Assembly (NCBI GenBank): GCA_947625535.1
Contig: CANQOR010000013.1
Coordinates: 1-40,442, forward strand
Length of the DNA: 40,442 bases
Direction: 5' to 3'
Origin: an uncultured Bacilli bacterium
Lineage (GTDB): Bacteria > Bacillota_I > Bacilli_A > RF39 > UBA660
This document shows positions 27,450 through 35,523 of this stretch, piece after piece. The position numbers were made by a program, and so were the translations under genes. The notes beneath the pieces are model-generated. The model saw only the letters and a list, made by a program, of their open reading frames with translations. It did no database searches and was not told the DNA's origin. Position 1 is the stretch's first letter, and the number at the start of each line of letters is the position of its first letter.

Positions 27450-29468
27450 TTATGGTGTTCCTGGAACTGTTGGTTCTTGTTCGTTATTTTGATTATTATT
27501 TTCTTCAGTAGGTGGATTTTCACCAGTAGAAGGATCTTCTTCTCCTTCGTTAGGGTTTTCTTCGTTTTCTTCACCATTATTTTCTTCTTCAGTAGGAGGA
27601 ACTGGTTCTTGGACACCAAGTCCATCACTAACTTCAAATGTTATAGAACTTAAACTTTTTACTAATTCACCTTCGTGAGCAGATTGATTAACAATAGTAC
27701 CACTACGAGAGGCATCTGTTATTGAATTAAAGTTACATGAAAGGCCATTAGCAGAACACCACGCACTAGCTGTTTCTTGATTAGAACCTATAAATGATTT
27801 AACTCTTTCAAGTTTACCACCACCATAGATACCTTTACCAACAATTGGTGTTGTGTACTCTTCATTATATGATATGCTAAATGTTTTAATAGGTGTTTCT
27901 TCTTCTAATTCTAGATTTGTACGCATTAATTTAGTAATAGCTGCTAATGAATCAGGATAGTAACCTAAAGCACTAGTATACATTTGTGATCTTGGTAACC
28001 AAACTGGTAAACTATAATAAGCTAGATGAGTTTTCTTGATAGATAATGAATTACCAGAAGAGTTAATTAACATATCTTTACCAACAGAGTAGAATGATAA
28101 GATTTGTTCTGGAGTCATATTTGTTTCGATATTACTAGATACTGTATCTAAGATTTTTTCAAATTCATTAAGATTATTAATTGTTCTTAGTTTTTTAGCC
28201 ATAGCTTCTATAATAGCTTGTTGATGTTGATTACGAGCTATATCTGATGTTGCATATAAGTGACGACATCTTGCATAAGCTAGAGCTTGTTCACCATTTA
28301 AGGTTTGAATACCTGGATTTATACATATTAAGTTTTTACCAAATCTTCTTTGAGAATCTTGTTCACAAACTTGACCAATATGTTGATCATTATATGAGAA
28401 GTCTGGTTCTTCAACATCTACTGTAACACCACCTAAGGCATCAACTAATCTAACAACACCAGTAAAGTTAATTTTTACATAGTAATCAATATCAATATCA
28501 GTTAATTGTTTAATAGTATTTATTACGCAACTTGAACCATAAGCAGCAGATGAATTAATTTTCGCATAACGATTATGATTACAAGCAATAGGTACATACA
28601 TATCTCTTGGGATACTAAACATTGTTGCTGTTAAGGTATTAGGATTAAATGTAATTAATATTAAAGTATCACCATTAAATGCTTGATTGGCTTTTAGACC
28701 ATCTAGGGTTGAGTCAACACCCATTACTAAAACTGTAAATGGTTCAGTTAAAGTTTTTTCTTTACTATTATTTAAAGTAACAACATCTTGATTTTCTCTT
28801 TTTTCATTATATTCATATAATACTTTAACTTTATCAGCGATAGGAGTAACTTTTTCTCCTTCTTTAACCCCTTCAAAGTCTTCACCAGCAAAGATAATAG
28901 AGTAATTACTAGATACAAAGCAAGCACCTATTGTTCCTTTATATAGATCACTTATCATAGAATGATAATCTTCATAATATTCTATTTTATTTGTTAATCC
29001 TTCTTTATTAATTAATTCTTTAGCTAAGATATTTCCTTCAATATCATCTTCTGCTTCAATCATACCAATAACTAAGTTACTATTAAAGTTAGTAGTTTTT
29101 AAAGCTATTAAATTAGTAGTATATATTAATTCATCATTATTAATACCCTTTAGGGAAGTATAAGCTTTATCTATATAATAAGAGACAACTCCAAATACAG
29201 GACAAAATAATAAAGTAATAATAGTTATAAAGATAAATGTTTTAGTTTTTTTAGCAATCATGGTTAATAAACCACATAAGATATATATTAAGAACCATAA
29301 ACCAAAGAATGCTATGACAATGTAACGAATTAAGTTTTCAATATTTTTAAGTCTTAATAAGTTATATGTAAAAAAACTAAATGTTATTATATATAAAATT
29401 AAAGATAAAAAATAGAAAAATTTTTTAGCTCCATGAACCTTTTTTAATTTTTTTGTTAATACTTTCAT
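27450..29468 (-). CDS. LytR-CpsA-Psr (LCP) family glycopolymer transferase
   Basis: 672 aa. LCP enzymes transfer undecaprenyl-linked wall polymers to peptidoglycan, outside the cell. Three N-terminal helices (about 15-35, 48-70, 78-98) precede an extra extracytoplasmic domain (about 110-235) and the LCP domain (about 240-460): VLVMGVDST, FNGDTLILITFNP, FSIPRDMYVPI with its catalytic Arg, and ALAYARCRHLYATSDIARNQ. The remainder holds a PASTA-like region (LERVKSFIGSNQETASAWC) and an acidic Glu/Pro/Asn-rich tail ending VPGTP. Chosen ATG: AAGGGTGAT lies 7 nt upstream; a GTG 12 nt earlier is within that site. It is divergent from the dockerin gene and shares its intergenic region. Confidence 0.93.
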   Translation of the reverse strand: MKVLTKKLKKVHGAKKFFYFLSLILYIITFSFFTYNLLRLKNIENLIRYIVIAFFGLWFLIYILCGLLTMIAKKTKTFIFITIITLLFCPVFGVVSYYIDKAYTSLKGINNDELIYTTNLIALKTTNFNSNLVIGMIEAEDDIEGNILAKELINKEGLTNKIEYYEDYHSMISDLYKGTIGACFVSSNYSIIFAGEDFEGVKEGEKVTPIADKVKVLYEYNEKRENQDVVTLNNSKEKTLTEPFTVLVMGVDSTLDGLKANQAFNGDTLILITFNPNTLTATMFSIPRDMYVPIACNHNRYAKINSSAAYGSSCVINTIKQLTDIDIDYYVKINFTGVVRLVDALGGVTVDVEEPDFSYNDQHIGQVCEQDSQRRFGKNLICINPGIQTLNGEQALAYARCRHLYATSDIARNQHQQAIIEAMAKKLRTINNLNEFEKILDTVSSNIETNMTPEQILSFYSVGKDMLINSSGNSLSIKKTHLAYYSLPVWLPRSQMYTSALGYYPDSLAAITKLMRTNLELEEETPIKTFSISYNEEYTTPIVGKGIYGGGKLERVKSFIGSNQETASAWCSANGLSCNFNSITDASRSGTIVNQSAHEGELVKSLSSITFEVSDGLGVQEPVPPTEEENNGEENEENPNEGEEDPSTGENPPTEENNNQNNEQEPTVPGTP

Positions 29469-29506
29469 GAAAAAAATCACCCTTGCTTTTTAATCTATTA
29501 TTATGA

Positions 29507-29649: not shown

Positions 29650-31656
29650 GTGAAAAATTTTGTTAAATATTTTTGTTTAATTGTTTTTTTACTTAGTGCT
29701 TTCTTATTAATGATAAATACTTCTAATACACAAGCTGCTTTAGATTATCCTTTTGATGGAGTTATAGTTAGTACTGATTTATTAGCTGTTATTCATAATG
29801 CTGCTAATTATAATACTAATAGTGAAATAGATGAGTTAATTAATGGAACTAAGGTTAAAGTAGTAGGTAAATCTGGTTCTTTATATAAGATAACTTATGG
29901 AGAAGATAAAGAAGGGTATGTAGCTTCTTCATTAGTTAAGAGTATTGCTGCTAGCACTTTAACTACTAATGCTAATGGAGTAGAACCTTATGAAGATTAT
30001 TGTAATATGTTAGTTAAAGAGGGTTTTGATAAAAGTTATTGTCCTTATTTATATTATATTCATAGTAATCATCCTAAATGGGTATTTAAAGCTGATGTAA
30101 ATAATTATACTTTAGAAGAAGCAGCTAAGAAGGAAGAAGAGAATGTTTCTTTACAAACAGTTAATAAAACTTATTGGTATTATGAGAATAATCAACCTAA
30201 AATAAATGAAAAGAGTGCTGGTAGAGATTATTATTTTATTAATTCTAGTGTTATAGCTTCATTATTAGATCCAAGAAATAGTTTATATGATGGAATTATT
30301 TTTCAATTTTTAAATCTTGAAAAGAATACGGATGCTATTAATGAAGATGCTATTGTGGCTATTACGGGAGAAAAGGGTAATTTAAGAAAGTTTACTAATG
30401 AATTTATTAAAGCAGCTTCTTCTTTAAATATTAATGCTTTACATTTAATTGCTAGAAGTACACAAGAAGGAGCTAATAAAGAGGGTTATGCTCCAACTAC
30501 AGGGACATATACTAAGGATACAGGAACTACTAATCCTGATGGTAAGACTTTAGATGGCTTTTATAATTTTTATAATATGGGAGCTTATGTTGAAAAAGAT
30601 AAAGGATATACATCAAGTATTCAAAGAGGTCTTGCTTATGCAGCTGGTTATATAGATGGTGATAGTTATGGAAGACCTTGGGATACAGCAGAAAAAGCTG
30701 TTTTAGGTGGAGGACAATGGATAGGAAGCCTTTATGTAAAGAGAGCTCAAAATACTAATTATTTTCAAAAGTATAATGTTTCTAATAAGACTTCAACACC
30801 TTTTGGACATCAATATATGACAAATGGAGCTGCTCCTTTATTAGAGAGTAATTCAATGTTTAAAGCTTATACAGCTGGTAATCTTTTAGATACTGATTTT
30901 GAATTTTTAATTCCAGTATATAAAGATATGCCTAGTGATGGATATCAAGCTACTTTAAAAGATTCTAATAGTTCATTAAGTTCTATTACTGTTGATGATA
31001 AAGTAATAACTGGTTTTGATAGTAGTATCTTGGAATATAATTATAATGCTAGTACTAATGCTAATTCTGTCAAAGTAGGAGCTAAGACATTAGTATCTAC
31101 TAGTACAGTAAAAGGAACTGGTAATTATAATTTTGTTGATAATAAAGTAAGTGTTAGTTTAGTGGTAACAGCTGAAGATGGAACAACTACTACTTATAAA
31201 GTTAATATTACTAAAGTAACACCACAAGAGAATGTTAAAGTAACAGATATAGTTTCTAAAATGGGAGTTAAAATAAATGGAGATTATATGTATGGAATAA
31301 GTCCTGATACTTCAGCTACTAGTTTATTAAATACAGTTACTAAAAATAAAGGTAAAGCTAGTATAGTAGATAGTTCTCTTAAAACTAAAACTTCTGGTTC
31401 TTTAGCAACAGGAGATAAGATTACTATAAATGGTACTAATGATAGTAAGACATATACTATTGCTGTACGAGGAGATGTTAATGGAGATGGAGCTGTTAAG
31501 ATAAATGATTTAATTTTAATACAAAGTCATATCTTAGGTAAAAATATTTTAAAAAATGAAAAAGTTTTGGCAGCTGATATTAATTATGATAGTAATATTA
31601 AGATAAATGATTTAATTTTAGTACAAAGTAATATTTTAGGTAAGAATACCTTATAG
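29650..31656 (+). CDS. Secreted glucosaminidase-like wall hydrolase with SH3, cadherin-like and dockerin domains
   Basis: 668 aa. Signal peptide to about 29; SH3-like domain about 35-97 (GTKVKVVGKSGSLYKITYG); glucosaminidase-type hydrolase about 115-425, with LHLIARSTQEG near 265-274 (Glu273 the likely acid, as in HLASRxRQE of this family), NFYNMGAY, and WDTAEKAVLGGGQWIG near 344-359. A cadherin-like beta sandwich (PF12733 type) covers about 440-522. Residues 608-668 are a type I dockerin: two EF-hand-like loops, DVNGDGAVKIND (Asp609, Asn611, Asp613, Asp620) and DINYDSNIKIND (Asp643, Asn645, Asp647, Asp654), each followed by LILxQSxILGKN. It should cut peptidoglycan and dock via calcium to a cohesin. 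GTG start after AAGGAAGTGAT. It lies 14 nt before a gene for a cohesin-like protein. Confidence 0.9.
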   Translation: MKNFVKYFCLIVFLLSAFLLMINTSNTQAALDYPFDGVIVSTDLLAVIHNAANYNTNSEIDELINGTKVKVVGKSGSLYKITYGEDKEGYVASSLVKSIAASTLTTNANGVEPYEDYCNMLVKEGFDKSYCPYLYYIHSNHPKWVFKADVNNYTLEEAAKKEEENVSLQTVNKTYWYYENNQPKINEKSAGRDYYFINSSVIASLLDPRNSLYDGIIFQFLNLEKNTDAINEDAIVAITGEKGNLRKFTNEFIKAASSLNINALHLIARSTQEGANKEGYAPTTGTYTKDTGTTNPDGKTLDGFYNFYNMGAYVEKDKGYTSSIQRGLAYAAGYIDGDSYGRPWDTAEKAVLGGGQWIGSLYVKRAQNTNYFQKYNVSNKTSTPFGHQYMTNGAAPLLESNSMFKAYTAGNLLDTDFEFLIPVYKDMPSDGYQATLKDSNSSLSSITVDDKVITGFDSSILEYNYNASTNANSVKVGAKTLVSTSTVKGTGNYNFVDNKVSVSLVVTAEDGTTTTYKVNITKVTPQENVKVTDIVSKMGVKINGDYMYGISPDTSATSLLNTVTKNKGKASIVDSSLKTKTSGSLATGDKITINGTNDSKTYTIAVRGDVNGDGAVKINDLILIQSHILGKNILKNEKVLAADINYDSNIKINDLILVQSNILGKNTL

Positions 31657-31670
31657 AAGGAGTTAGTTGA

Positions 31671-33350
31671 ATGAAAAAGATTAAATATTTAAGTTATGGA
31701 ATACTTTTATTCTTTGTTGGTATATTAGTTAGTAATGCTGCTTCATTAAAAGTAAGTGCTAATAAATCTACTGTTGTAGTTGGAAGTACAGTTACAATAA
31801 CAGTTAATGCTTCAGGAGCTGCTGGTTGGGAATACTGTTTAAATTATAATTCATCTATTTTTCAATTAACATCAACTACTTCTGATTCAGGAGGTAAATG
31901 TGTATTAACAGGATCTACTTTAGGTGGTTTTAGTAAAGTAACATTTACTTTAAAAGCTATTAAGAGTGGTAGTGCTACTATCTCACTAGATAAAGCATTT
32001 ATGTATAACGATAATGGTGATTCAATTAGTTTTAGTAAAAATACAGTAAAATTAACGACGAAGACACAAGCTGAAATAGAAGCTAGTTATAGTACAGATG
32101 CTGATTTAAAAAGTTTAGGAGTAGAAGGCTATGATTTAAGTCCATCTTTTGATAAAAATACAACTTCTTATAAATTAGAAGTTGGTAATGAAGTAGATAA
32201 AATTGTTATTAATGCTAGTAAATCTGATAGTAGTGCTTCAATGTCTGGGACAGGAGAAAAGAATCTTACAGAAGGAATTAATGTTTTTAAAGTAGTAGTA
32301 ACGGCTGAAAAAGGCAATAAGAAGACTTATACAATAGAAGTTACACGTAAAGAATTAAATCCTATTAATGTAGAAGTTAATAATCAAGAAATGTCTGTAG
32401 TTAGAAAGATAGATGCTTTAGAAGTACCTGCTTATTATTCTTCAACTGAAATTGAATATCAAAATGAAACTATACCAGCTTTAAAAAGTGATATAACAGG
32501 TTTTGTTTTAGTAGGATTAAAAGATGAAGAGGGTAATATTAATTTATATGTTTTTGATAATGTAACTAATGTTTTTAAAGAATATAAACAAGTAGGAATG
32601 GATGGTTTTACTTTTGTATCTTTAGAACCAAGTGAATTAATTAAAGGATATGAAAGTACTAAGAATATAGAAATAGAAGATTTAACTATTAATGCTTATT
32701 ATAATAGTGATAATGAAATGGTTTTAGTATATGGAATGAATGCTAAGACAGGAGAGACTTCTTGGTATAAGTACGATGAAAAGGAAGGAACTTTTCAAAG
32801 ATATATTGCTAATAAAGTAGTTAATGTAGAAGATAAAAATGATTTATATTTTATTTTAGCAATTGTCTTTGCTTGTGGTTTGGGTTTAGCTATTATTATC
32901 TTAATTGTTATTATGAGAATTAATTCTGATATAAGAAAGAAAAATAATAAGTTAATTAGTATTTTACAAAGTAAGCAGGAAGAAGAATTAAGAAATAAAG
33001 CTAAGTTACTTGAAGAAGAAAAAGAAAAAGAAGATAAAGTAAAAGAAAAGAAAACTAAGAAGAAAAAAGAAGAAGTAAAAGAAGAACAAGTAACTGAAGA
33101 AGTAGAAGAGGAAGAAACTAGTGAAGTAACTGCGGAAGATAGTGAAGAAACTAGTGAAGTAACGGAGGAAGAAAAACAGCCAGAGGAACTTTCACAAAGA
33201 GAGCTAAGAAGAATAGAAAAACAAAAAGAAAAAGAACTGGCTGAAATACAAGAAAGTAATAAGAAAGTAGATATTTTAGATGGTAAAACAGAAGAAATAG
33301 TTATAGAGAAAGCAAGTCGTAGTAATAGAAGTAAAAAAAGAAAAAAGTAA
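31671..33350 (+). CDS. Membrane-anchored protein with cohesin-like ectodomain and cytoplasmic coiled-coil tail
   Basis: 559 aa. Signal peptide to about 24. Residues 25-130 form a beta-rich module resembling a cohesin/CBM-fold domain: SLKVSANKSTVVVGSTVTIT, AAGWEYCLNYNSSIFQL, then VTFTLKAIKSGSATISL. It is about 105 aa, shorter than usual for cohesins (about 140), and has a Cys pair (56, 77). A cadherin-like domain (about 143-226) like that of the upstream gene follows, then a region with paired GFVLVGLKDEEG...NLYVFDN and YNSDNEMVLVYGMN blocks (about 235-385), a helix (392-415) and a highly charged Lys/Glu tail of about 145 residues inside the cell. The tail ends in a basic KKRKK. It is probably the receptor for the dockerin protein. 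AAGGAG precedes the ATG. Confidence 0.75.
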   Translation: MKKIKYLSYGILLFFVGILVSNAASLKVSANKSTVVVGSTVTITVNASGAAGWEYCLNYNSSIFQLTSTTSDSGGKCVLTGSTLGGFSKVTFTLKAIKSGSATISLDKAFMYNDNGDSISFSKNTVKLTTKTQAEIEASYSTDADLKSLGVEGYDLSPSFDKNTTSYKLEVGNEVDKIVINASKSDSSASMSGTGEKNLTEGINVFKVVVTAEKGNKKTYTIEVTRKELNPINVEVNNQEMSVVRKIDALEVPAYYSSTEIEYQNETIPALKSDITGFVLVGLKDEEGNINLYVFDNVTNVFKEYKQVGMDGFTFVSLEPSELIKGYESTKNIEIEDLTINAYYNSDNEMVLVYGMNAKTGETSWYKYDEKEGTFQRYIANKVVNVEDKNDLYFILAIVFACGLGLAIIILIVIMRINSDIRKKNNKLISILQSKQEEELRNKAKLLEEEKEKEDKVKEKKTKKKKEEVKEEQVTEEVEEEETSEVTAEDSEETSEVTEEEKQPEELSQRELRRIEKQKEKELAEIQESNKKVDILDGKTEEIVIEKASRSNRSKKRKK

Positions 33351-34497: not shown

Positions 34498-35523
34498 ATG
34501 AAGTTTAATTTATATGATTTTGATGGGACAATCTATGATGGAGATTCAGGAGTAGATATAATTTTATTTGCAATAAAAAAGAAACCTAAAGTTATTTTTA
34601 CTTTATTAAGTTCTTTAGGAATTGTTATTCTTTATTTACTTAAGTTACGTACTAAAGAAGAAATGAAAAATAAATTATTTTCTTTCTTAAAGTACTTTCC
34701 AGAAACAGATGAATTTGTTAAAGAATTTTGGGATACTCATGAAAATAAATTAAAAGATTTTTGGGTGAATGAAAAGAGTCATAAAAATGATGTTATTATT
34801 TCAGCTTCAGGTTATTTTTGGTTAAAACCAATAGCAGATAAATATAAAGTAAAAGATTTAATTGCTACAGAAATAGATCCTTTAACTGGTAAAATAATTG
34901 GTAATAATTGTCATGGTAAAGAAAAAGTTAAAGTATTTTATCAAAAATATCCAAAAGCAACAATTAATAAAATGTATACTGATTCAATAAATGATTTGCC
35001 TTTAATAGAAGAAGCTAAAGAAGGTATTTTAGTTAAAAAGAATAAATTATATAATTATTATGAATATAAACCTAATTTTATAGTTCGTTTTTGGCGATGG
35101 GGTTGGGGAATATATCATAAAAATGAAGAGTTATGGAATTATTTAATTGTTGGTGGTTTAACGACAGTTGTTAGTGTTGGAGTTAAATGGTTGTTATTAT
35201 TTACAATATTTGATGCTTCTGATGGAAAACAATTACAATTAGCAATTATAATATCATGGCTTGCAGCAGTTTTATTTGCTTATGTATGTAATAGAATTTA
35301 TGTCTTTAAAAGTAAAAATAAAGAAATATTTAAAGAAATGTGTCAATTCTTTGGAGCTCGTATATTAACTTTATTGATGGAAATGTTTATTATGTGGTTT
35401 TTTGTTACTTTATTAAAATTAAATACAGATATGTGGATTGTTATATGGACAATTGTAACGCAAATATTAATTATGATTTTTAATTATATCTTTAGTAAAT
35501 TGTTTGTTTTTAAGAAAAAGTAA
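34498..35523 (+). CDS. HAD-family phosphatase fused to a GtrA-like membrane domain
   Basis: 341 aa. The N-terminal part (about 1-190) is a HAD hydrolase of the SerB/HAD-IB type: DFDGTIYDGD at 7-16 (nucleophile Asp7, Asp9), ISASG near 100 (motif II), HGKEKVKVF near 140 (Lys of motif III) and YTDSINDLPLI near 160 (motif IV). The C-terminal part (about 212-340) is a GtrA/DPMS-type four-helix domain (LWNYLIVGGLTTVVSVGVKW, FAYVCNRIYVFKSK, IFNYIFSKLFVF), proteins that help flip or use undecaprenyl-linked sugars. The fusion, placed next to a polyprenyl-phosphate sugar transferase, suggests one protein that handles a lipid-linked sugar or its phosphate. RBS weak (GCAGGA, 8 nt). Confidence 0.88.
   Translation: MKFNLYDFDGTIYDGDSGVDIILFAIKKKPKVIFTLLSSLGIVILYLLKLRTKEEMKNKLFSFLKYFPETDEFVKEFWDTHENKLKDFWVNEKSHKNDVIISASGYFWLKPIADKYKVKDLIATEIDPLTGKIIGNNCHGKEKVKVFYQKYPKATINKMYTDSINDLPLIEEAKEGILVKKNKLYNYYEYKPNFIVRFWRWGWGIYHKNEELWNYLIVGGLTTVVSVGVKWLLLFTIFDASDGKQLQLAIIISWLAAVLFAYVCNRIYVFKSKNKEIFKEMCQFFGARILTLLMEMFIMWFFVTLLKLNTDMWIVIWTIVTQILIMIFNYIFSKLFVFKKK

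Follow-up and report, generated by a model that had tools for sequence, protein, structure and literature searches.

A conserved cohesin–dockerin gene pair that probably holds a peptidoglycan hydrolase at the membrane of uncultured gut Bacilli

Cohesins and dockerins are familiar chiefly as the connectors of cellulosomes. Here we describe a conserved two-gene unit in which such a pair probably serves a different end, the retention of a cell wall hydrolase at the membrane. The unit lies in a 40 442-nucleotide stretch of DNA from an uncultured Bacilli bacterium (GenBank assembly GCA_947625535.1, contig CANQOR010000013.1, positions 1 to 40 442; ‘the window’ denotes this whole stretch). Gene A encodes a secreted glucosaminidase ending in a type I dockerin, and gene B, which starts 14 nt after the stop codon of gene A on the same strand, encodes a single-pass membrane receptor with an N-terminal cohesin (table 1). 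We put the probability that gene B holds the gene A product at the membrane via a calcium-dependent cohesin–dockerin bond at roughly 0.8. The parts are known; in the portion of the open literature that was accessible we found no description of their use in this way, nor of any peptidoglycan hydrolase that carries a dockerin and has a membrane receptor with a cohesin, and an earlier mention may exist.

In the mechanism we propose, the gene B receptor would cross the membrane once and carry its cohesin outside, raised on two beta domains. The gene A product, secreted without an anchor, would plug its calcium-loaded C-terminal dockerin into this cohesin, and this bond would stop the enzyme, which cuts the wall, from diffusing away, so that it stays on the outer side of the membrane beside newly made peptidoglycan. 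A sequence-only reading of the window had suggested that a calcium-dependent pair retains a wall hydrolase at the membrane, and this is the best reading of the present data because the gene B module is a cohesin, the gene pair is conserved, and dockerin and cohesin co-evolve. Physical binding, its calcium dependence and the localisation of the enzyme are what we infer from the parts, the fold, the pairing and the co-variation. By analogy with SagB–SpdC of Staphylococcus aureus, the unit may help to trim nascent glycan strands or to release them.

The catalytic part of gene A matches the NCBIfam SagB model NF052642 with 59 bits (the cut-off for SagB itself, 425, lies far above this) and solved glucosaminidases, among them 6fxp (E = 4e-9) and 6u0o_B (E = 1e-8). 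Apart from the signal peptide, no transmembrane stretch was found in gene A or in its 78 aligned relatives. Each of the two dockerin repeats has a Dx[ND]xD...D calcium loop and then a helix, which reads L-I-L-[IV]-Q-S-x-I-L-G-K-N in both. The earlier description of a glucosaminidase-like enzyme with a C-terminal type I dockerin, two calcium loops and their helices thus holds, given the SagB-type catalytic match and the Pfam dockerin match. The modelled dockerin of a relative superposes on 2ccl_B with a Z-score of 13.0 (0.8 Å over 62 residues). The internal symmetry of the gene A dockerin, with its two near-identical recognition helices, suggests that it may bind its cohesin in two orientations, as Clostridium dockerins with their dual binding mode do. 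It is the only complete dockerin of the genome. The other match is a half dockerin on a probable contaminant contig (G000:C88:3336-3419, locus L002), which is short and carries other open reading frames (ORFs) that look unlike those of the genome; the assembly that holds the window is listed as 7.4% contaminated.

The weak point of the sequence-only reading was the cohesin itself, as the candidate module measured about 105 amino acids instead of about 140. When residues 24–131 of gene B were taken alone, the best Pfam match was Cohesin (PF00963), with 20.3 bits and below the cut-off of 24.1. Of 42 homologous modules, 37 matched Pfam Cohesin at E-values up to 0.01 (best 2.5e-10), and a profile of the modules searched against the PDB returned cohesins on top (best E = 3.8e-6). 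The AlphaFold model of the gene B ectodomain from the window has a mean predicted local distance difference test (pLDDT) score of 90, and its module shows the nine-stranded jelly-roll of cohesins (PF00963). In VIA-align comparisons this module matched 2jh2 (Z-score 13.6, 2.3 Å over 109 residues), 2vo8 (Z-score 13.2) and 1g1k (Z-score 11.6), with many cellulosomal cohesins at Z-scores of 10 to 12. The module of a relative, modelled at pLDDT 94–98, yielded a Z-score of 14.4 with 2w1n (2.2 Å over 116 residues), and its nine best Foldseek matches were all cohesins. Single-domain PDB matches were led by cohesins for both models, and a fold of the Big/Ig type only was rejected on these grounds for the window module and the canonical relative alike. 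With fold, profile and Pfam evidence in agreement, we now regard the prediction that the gene B module is a cohesin as firm. The short Tyr-class and Met-Arg-Gln-class modules are homologous to canonical cohesins (hhalign probability 97–98%), a result that speaks for homology only and not for fold.

The remainder of gene B also has the make-up originally read from it: a signal peptide, the beta module, a Cadherin-like domain of a kind also present in gene A, a membrane helix and a charged tail. Between the Cadherin-like domain and the membrane lies a beta domain that matched no Pfam family; its motif, TLVGLKD..GNI.LYIYD, is strongly conserved in homologues. The suggestion that a coiled-coil tail might position the enzyme from inside the cell found no support, and we rejected positioning by the Lys/Glu tail because its length varies among relatives, from 145 amino acids here to a median of 41 over the 78 relatives with a transmembrane helix, only seven of which reach at least 100.

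We then examined whether the two genes are kept together, using 80 receptor loci fetched from the same family, for which the set comprises 145 genomes. Homologues of gene B are present in 115 of these genomes, nearly all of different genera, and 94 were counted as full-length; both partners occur in 93 genomes, the receptor only in one, dockerins only in 17 and neither in 34. A dockerin gene lies directly 5′ of the receptor in 79 of the 80 loci. The adjacent upstream ORF ends in a two-repeat dockerin in 78 of them, while in the 79th (G010) the dockerin is found 62 nt upstream of the receptor match. For the named genomes, 45 sequences gave no conserved stretch and the scan used seven; the pair is present in 79 of 80 named relatives, with the remaining one cut by a contig end. 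All of these relatives are uncultured genomes from the gut; most carry the title Bacilli or Tenericutes, and Candidatus Caccenecus is among them. We also fetched 15 receptor loci from two other families of Bacilli: 12 are immediately preceded by a dockerin gene, and all six of these upstream dockerin proteins that were checked matched Glucosaminidase (PF01832), five of them over the Pfam cut-off. Among the matches listed in a phylum sample none fell outside the class, the listed genomes all being from the class. The arrangement recurs in approximately 80 genera, which is far beyond chance.

Co-variation of the two modules was analysed in 79 pairs, for which the distance matrices of five domains were compared. 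Between dockerin and cohesin the correlation is r = 0.67, or 0.63 as a partial correlation given the other domains, whereas the partial correlation of the dockerin with those other domains does not exceed 0.16. A separate run gave a partial correlation of 0.64, compared with a mean of 0 (s.d. 0.08) for shuffles, and within the canonical class alone the value is 0.45 (p = 0.0005). Unsupervised clustering into four groups on each side yielded classes that agree in 76 of 79 pairs, with an adjusted mutual information of 0.85 versus 0.26 or less for control pairs. For independent contrasts we used a tree built without the two modules; in the Tyr class, the largest variant class, seven contrasts ran in the same direction and none in the opposite one (p = 0.016), and no class had an opposite case. 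The sites themselves were not selected beforehand. The top co-varying dockerin positions are 10, 13, 17 and 18, mirrored in both repeats, with correlations of the receptor profile between the repeats of 0.98, 1.00, 0.99 and 0.87, respectively. Published dockerin recognition positions are 10, 11, 17, 18 and 22 (PMC6780208; PMC3413522). On the receptor, the top positions are 55, 59, 77–79 and 84–87, mainly on or beside strands 3, 5 and 6, which form part of the 8-3-6-5 sheet touched by dockerin helices 1 and 3 in solved complexes (PMC5429695). By these measures dockerin and cohesin co-evolve, with known recognition positions among the strongest sites.

The same layout is found with other cargo: a dockerin protein beside a receptor with a cohesin, a Cadherin-like domain and mostly a single transmembrane helix. 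The cargo of these parallel operons is an M6 peptidase (L226, L227 and L245), a papain-like peptidase (L231, L233 and L238) or a subtilase (L225), and the recognition helices differ among the units of one genome (G045, G044, G032 and G012). The M6 operons pair a Tyr-class dockerin with the matching short module, as do glucosaminidase operons and several loci of the other two families. The paralogous operons appear to dock proteases likewise, by cohesin–dockerin pairs. We consider it fairly probable that cell-walled gut Bacilli possess a general set of insulated cohesin–dockerin bonds, one pair per operon, with which they dock their own surface enzymes on the membrane, the peptidoglycan glucosaminidase by the core pair, which is the most widespread, and proteases by the parallel pairs, and that this set serves their own envelope, not food polymers.

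Several observations weigh against membrane docking by gene B. The module in the window belongs to the more divergent members of its class and on its own stays under the Pfam cut-off. At the 80th same-family locus (G066, L106) the receptor is retained beside a hydrolase without a dockerin, and the 17 genomes noted above have dockerins but no detected full-length receptor. (The L106 hydrolase also lacks the Cadherin-like domain and has many SH3-like repeats, one of them within the catalytic region.) Independent contrasts were significant for one class and one tree only, with too few contrasts in the other classes and on a second tree built from the receptor domains alone, and inside the canonical class (49 pairs) site-level co-variation is weak and scattered. 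When dockerin and cohesin were co-folded as a single chain, taken from a relative that has both genes in frame and read through the stop codon, the predicted template modelling score was 0.67, with both parts confident, a value that fits the presence of an interface as well as its absence. Finally, two more cohesin-type proteins are encoded in the same genome.

These two proteins, a 4536-amino-acid surface protein on contig C17 and a 629-amino-acid receptor on contig C5, raise the prospect that the dockerin of gene A binds one of them and that gene B has some other partner. The sequence-only reading had named clearly better cohesins elsewhere in the genome as an argument against itself, and this came true in part, as the C17 cohesin outscores the gene B module with Pfam (33.4 versus 16.1 bits). 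However, cohesins of the C17 type are limited to 19 of 145 genomes, whereas the pair of genes A and B is nearly invariant, and the dockerin co-varies specifically with the gene B cohesin. Other receptors, moreover, adjoin their own dockerin proteins with different recognition helices; in G045, for instance, the core pair has NALDLLQVQK and the other NMTDLIKLRK. We therefore think a different partner for gene A quite improbable. The C17 cohesin (G000:C17:28251-28592, locus L004) lies at the N-terminus of its giant protein, which has two TM-like (transmembrane-like) stretches. Similar cohesins are present in 18 other genomes, and in some (G010, G050, G083 and G131) a dockerin match lies near the cohesin in an ORF of the same length, apparently one protein. 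The C5 receptor-like protein (G000:C5, locus L235:3287-5176) has a cohesin-like N-terminus, three Cadherin-like domains and a transmembrane stretch, with no dockerin neighbour.

Dockerins and cohesins classically serve extracellular digestion, the paralogous operons encode secreted proteases, and complexes of this sort that target mucin have been proposed for gut bacteria (PMC12997984). The pair could on this basis be a remnant or extension of a cellulosome-like system for feeding on the walls of other bacteria or on host glycans, and not act on the cell's own wall. We regard this as unlikely: each receptor has a single cohesin and each enzyme a single dockerin, the locus has no multi-cohesin scaffoldin, the enzyme is of the SagB type of wall hydrolase and has an SH3 domain, most family genomes have one to a few dockerins, and the receptor is a plain membrane protein beneath the wall. 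It is also conceivable that the co-variation comes from nothing more than common descent or gene conversion in a linked operon, the modules never touching, given that the genes are adjacent and inherited together and that dockerin classes weakly track the hydrolase too (adjusted mutual information 0.26 to 0.37). Yet the other domains of both proteins, which are equally linked, show hardly any correlation with the dockerin, the signal persists inside the canonical class, established recognition positions, mirrored between the repeats, are among the sites that co-vary most, and the M6 protease operons repeat the combination of Tyr-class dockerin and short module. Linkage without contact is accordingly a very improbable explanation.

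The nearest structural parallel to the docking unit is the single-cohesin surface anchoring of Clostridium thermocellum, in which OlpC and OlpA (4dh2, Coh-OlpC/Doc435, and 3ul4, Coh-OlpA/Doc918, both among our fold matches) likewise recruit one dockerin enzyme with a single surface cohesin. Those anchors are S-layer proteins recruiting exoenzymes, whereas the anchor of the A–B unit is a membrane helix and its enzyme cuts peptidoglycan and is encoded beside the receptor. For non-cellulosomal dockerins that the C. thermocellum surface recruits directly, a single binding mode has been described (PMC5429695), unlike the internally symmetric dockerin of gene A. The nearest functional parallel is SagB–SpdC of S. 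aureus, which frees nascent peptidoglycan from its membrane anchor and in which a membrane protein partner retains a SagB-type glucosaminidase at the membrane and tunes it (PMC12272431), much as we propose for the gene A enzyme. The two systems have no connector in common: SpdC, an integral membrane protein from the CAAX-protease family, lacks a cohesin and SagB lacks a dockerin, while the A–B unit would rely on a cohesin–dockerin pair and a receptor with one transmembrane helix. Pfam and NCBIfam scans found no CAAX-protease-family (SpdC-type) domain in gene B. The closest fold matches, with Z-scores of 13.2 to 14.4, are the cohesin (X82) modules of large glycosidases of Clostridium perfringens (2jh2, 2w1n and 2vo8). 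These non-cellulosomal cohesins take part in enzyme complexes (PMC11525138) and are located on the secreted enzyme, in contrast to the membrane receptor here. The cellulosome shares the type I dockerin and cohesin folds and the symmetric dockerin repeats, but the A–B unit has one pair per operon and neither a multi-cohesin scaffoldin nor a plant-fibre enzyme. In place of a scaffoldin with several cohesins and many dockerin enzymes, gene B has one cohesin and the genome one complete dockerin.

Divergent from gene A, the window encodes a LytR-CpsA-Psr ligase (27450–29480, minus strand) with several N-terminal transmembrane stretches and a weak C-terminal PASTA match (21 bits, cut-off 23.2). At 34498–35523 on the plus strand, a single ORF joins a HAD-family phosphatase to a GtrA-type membrane domain. 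We rejected deriving a function from the gene neighbourhood (the LytR-CpsA-Psr ligase and WecA), as WecA is directly downstream in only 8 of 79 loci. A promoter scan gave a result no better than shuffles, and a search of phage families gave no match. The features of the two genes are collected in table 1.

Table 1. Positions in the window of genes A and B and of their predicted parts.
Feature	Position	Strand	Basis or remark
Gene A, dockerin-bearing SagB/GH73-type glucosaminidase, secreted	29650..31656	+	668 aa, GTG start
Gene A signal peptide, about residues 1–29	29650..29736	+	Lys-start, hydrophobic core, NTQA-A
Gene A SH3_3, residues 59–97, probable wall-binding module	29824..29940	+	PF08239 24.3 bits, cut-off 27
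Gene A glucosaminidase catalytic domain, about residues 153–426	30106..30927	+	SagB NF052642; PDB matches
Gene A Glu273, aligned with the GH73-type catalytic Glu	30466..30468	+	kept in 78/79 aligned proteins
Gene A Cadherin-like beta-sandwich, residues 443–522	30976..31215	+	PF12733 22.4 bits, just below cut-off
Gene A type I dockerin, residues 608–663	31471..31638	+	PF00404 37.4 bits, cut-off 22.9
Dockerin calcium loop 1, residues 609–620	31474..31509	+	D609 conserved in 78/79, D620 in 79/79
Dockerin calcium loop 2, residues 643–654	31576..31611	+	D643 conserved in 68/79, D647 in 67/79, D654 in 76/79
Gene B, single-pass membrane receptor, N-terminal cohesin	31671..33350	+	559 aa, ATG start
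Gene B signal peptide, about residues 1–23	31671..31739	+	hydrophobic N-terminus conserved in 80 relatives
Gene B cohesin module, residues 24–131	31740..32063	+	AF2 (AlphaFold) pLDDT mostly 76–96; fold matches; Pfam Cohesin
Gene B Cadherin-like domain, residues 146–227	32106..32351	+	PF12733 45 bits
Gene B membrane-proximal beta domain, residues 229–380	32355..32810	+	conserved in 80 homologues; AF2 pLDDT mostly 80–96
Gene B transmembrane helix, about residues 396–414	32856..32912	+	hydropathy 3.18; transmembrane helix in 78/79 proteins
Gene B charged cytoplasmic tail, Lys/Glu-rich, variable	32913..33347	+	145 aa here

How wall hydrolases stay where they are needed is a question to which this unit offers a testable answer, with named residues. 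The divergence of the pair is a case of partner specificity changing repeatedly, with both sides moving together, and this natural set of matched pairs, with four dockerin and four module classes, could be drawn on at once as calcium-dependent connectors that are possibly orthogonal. In these gut bacteria, a large and mostly uncultured group, the conserved two-gene unit most likely serves to position a peptidoglycan hydrolase at the membrane.

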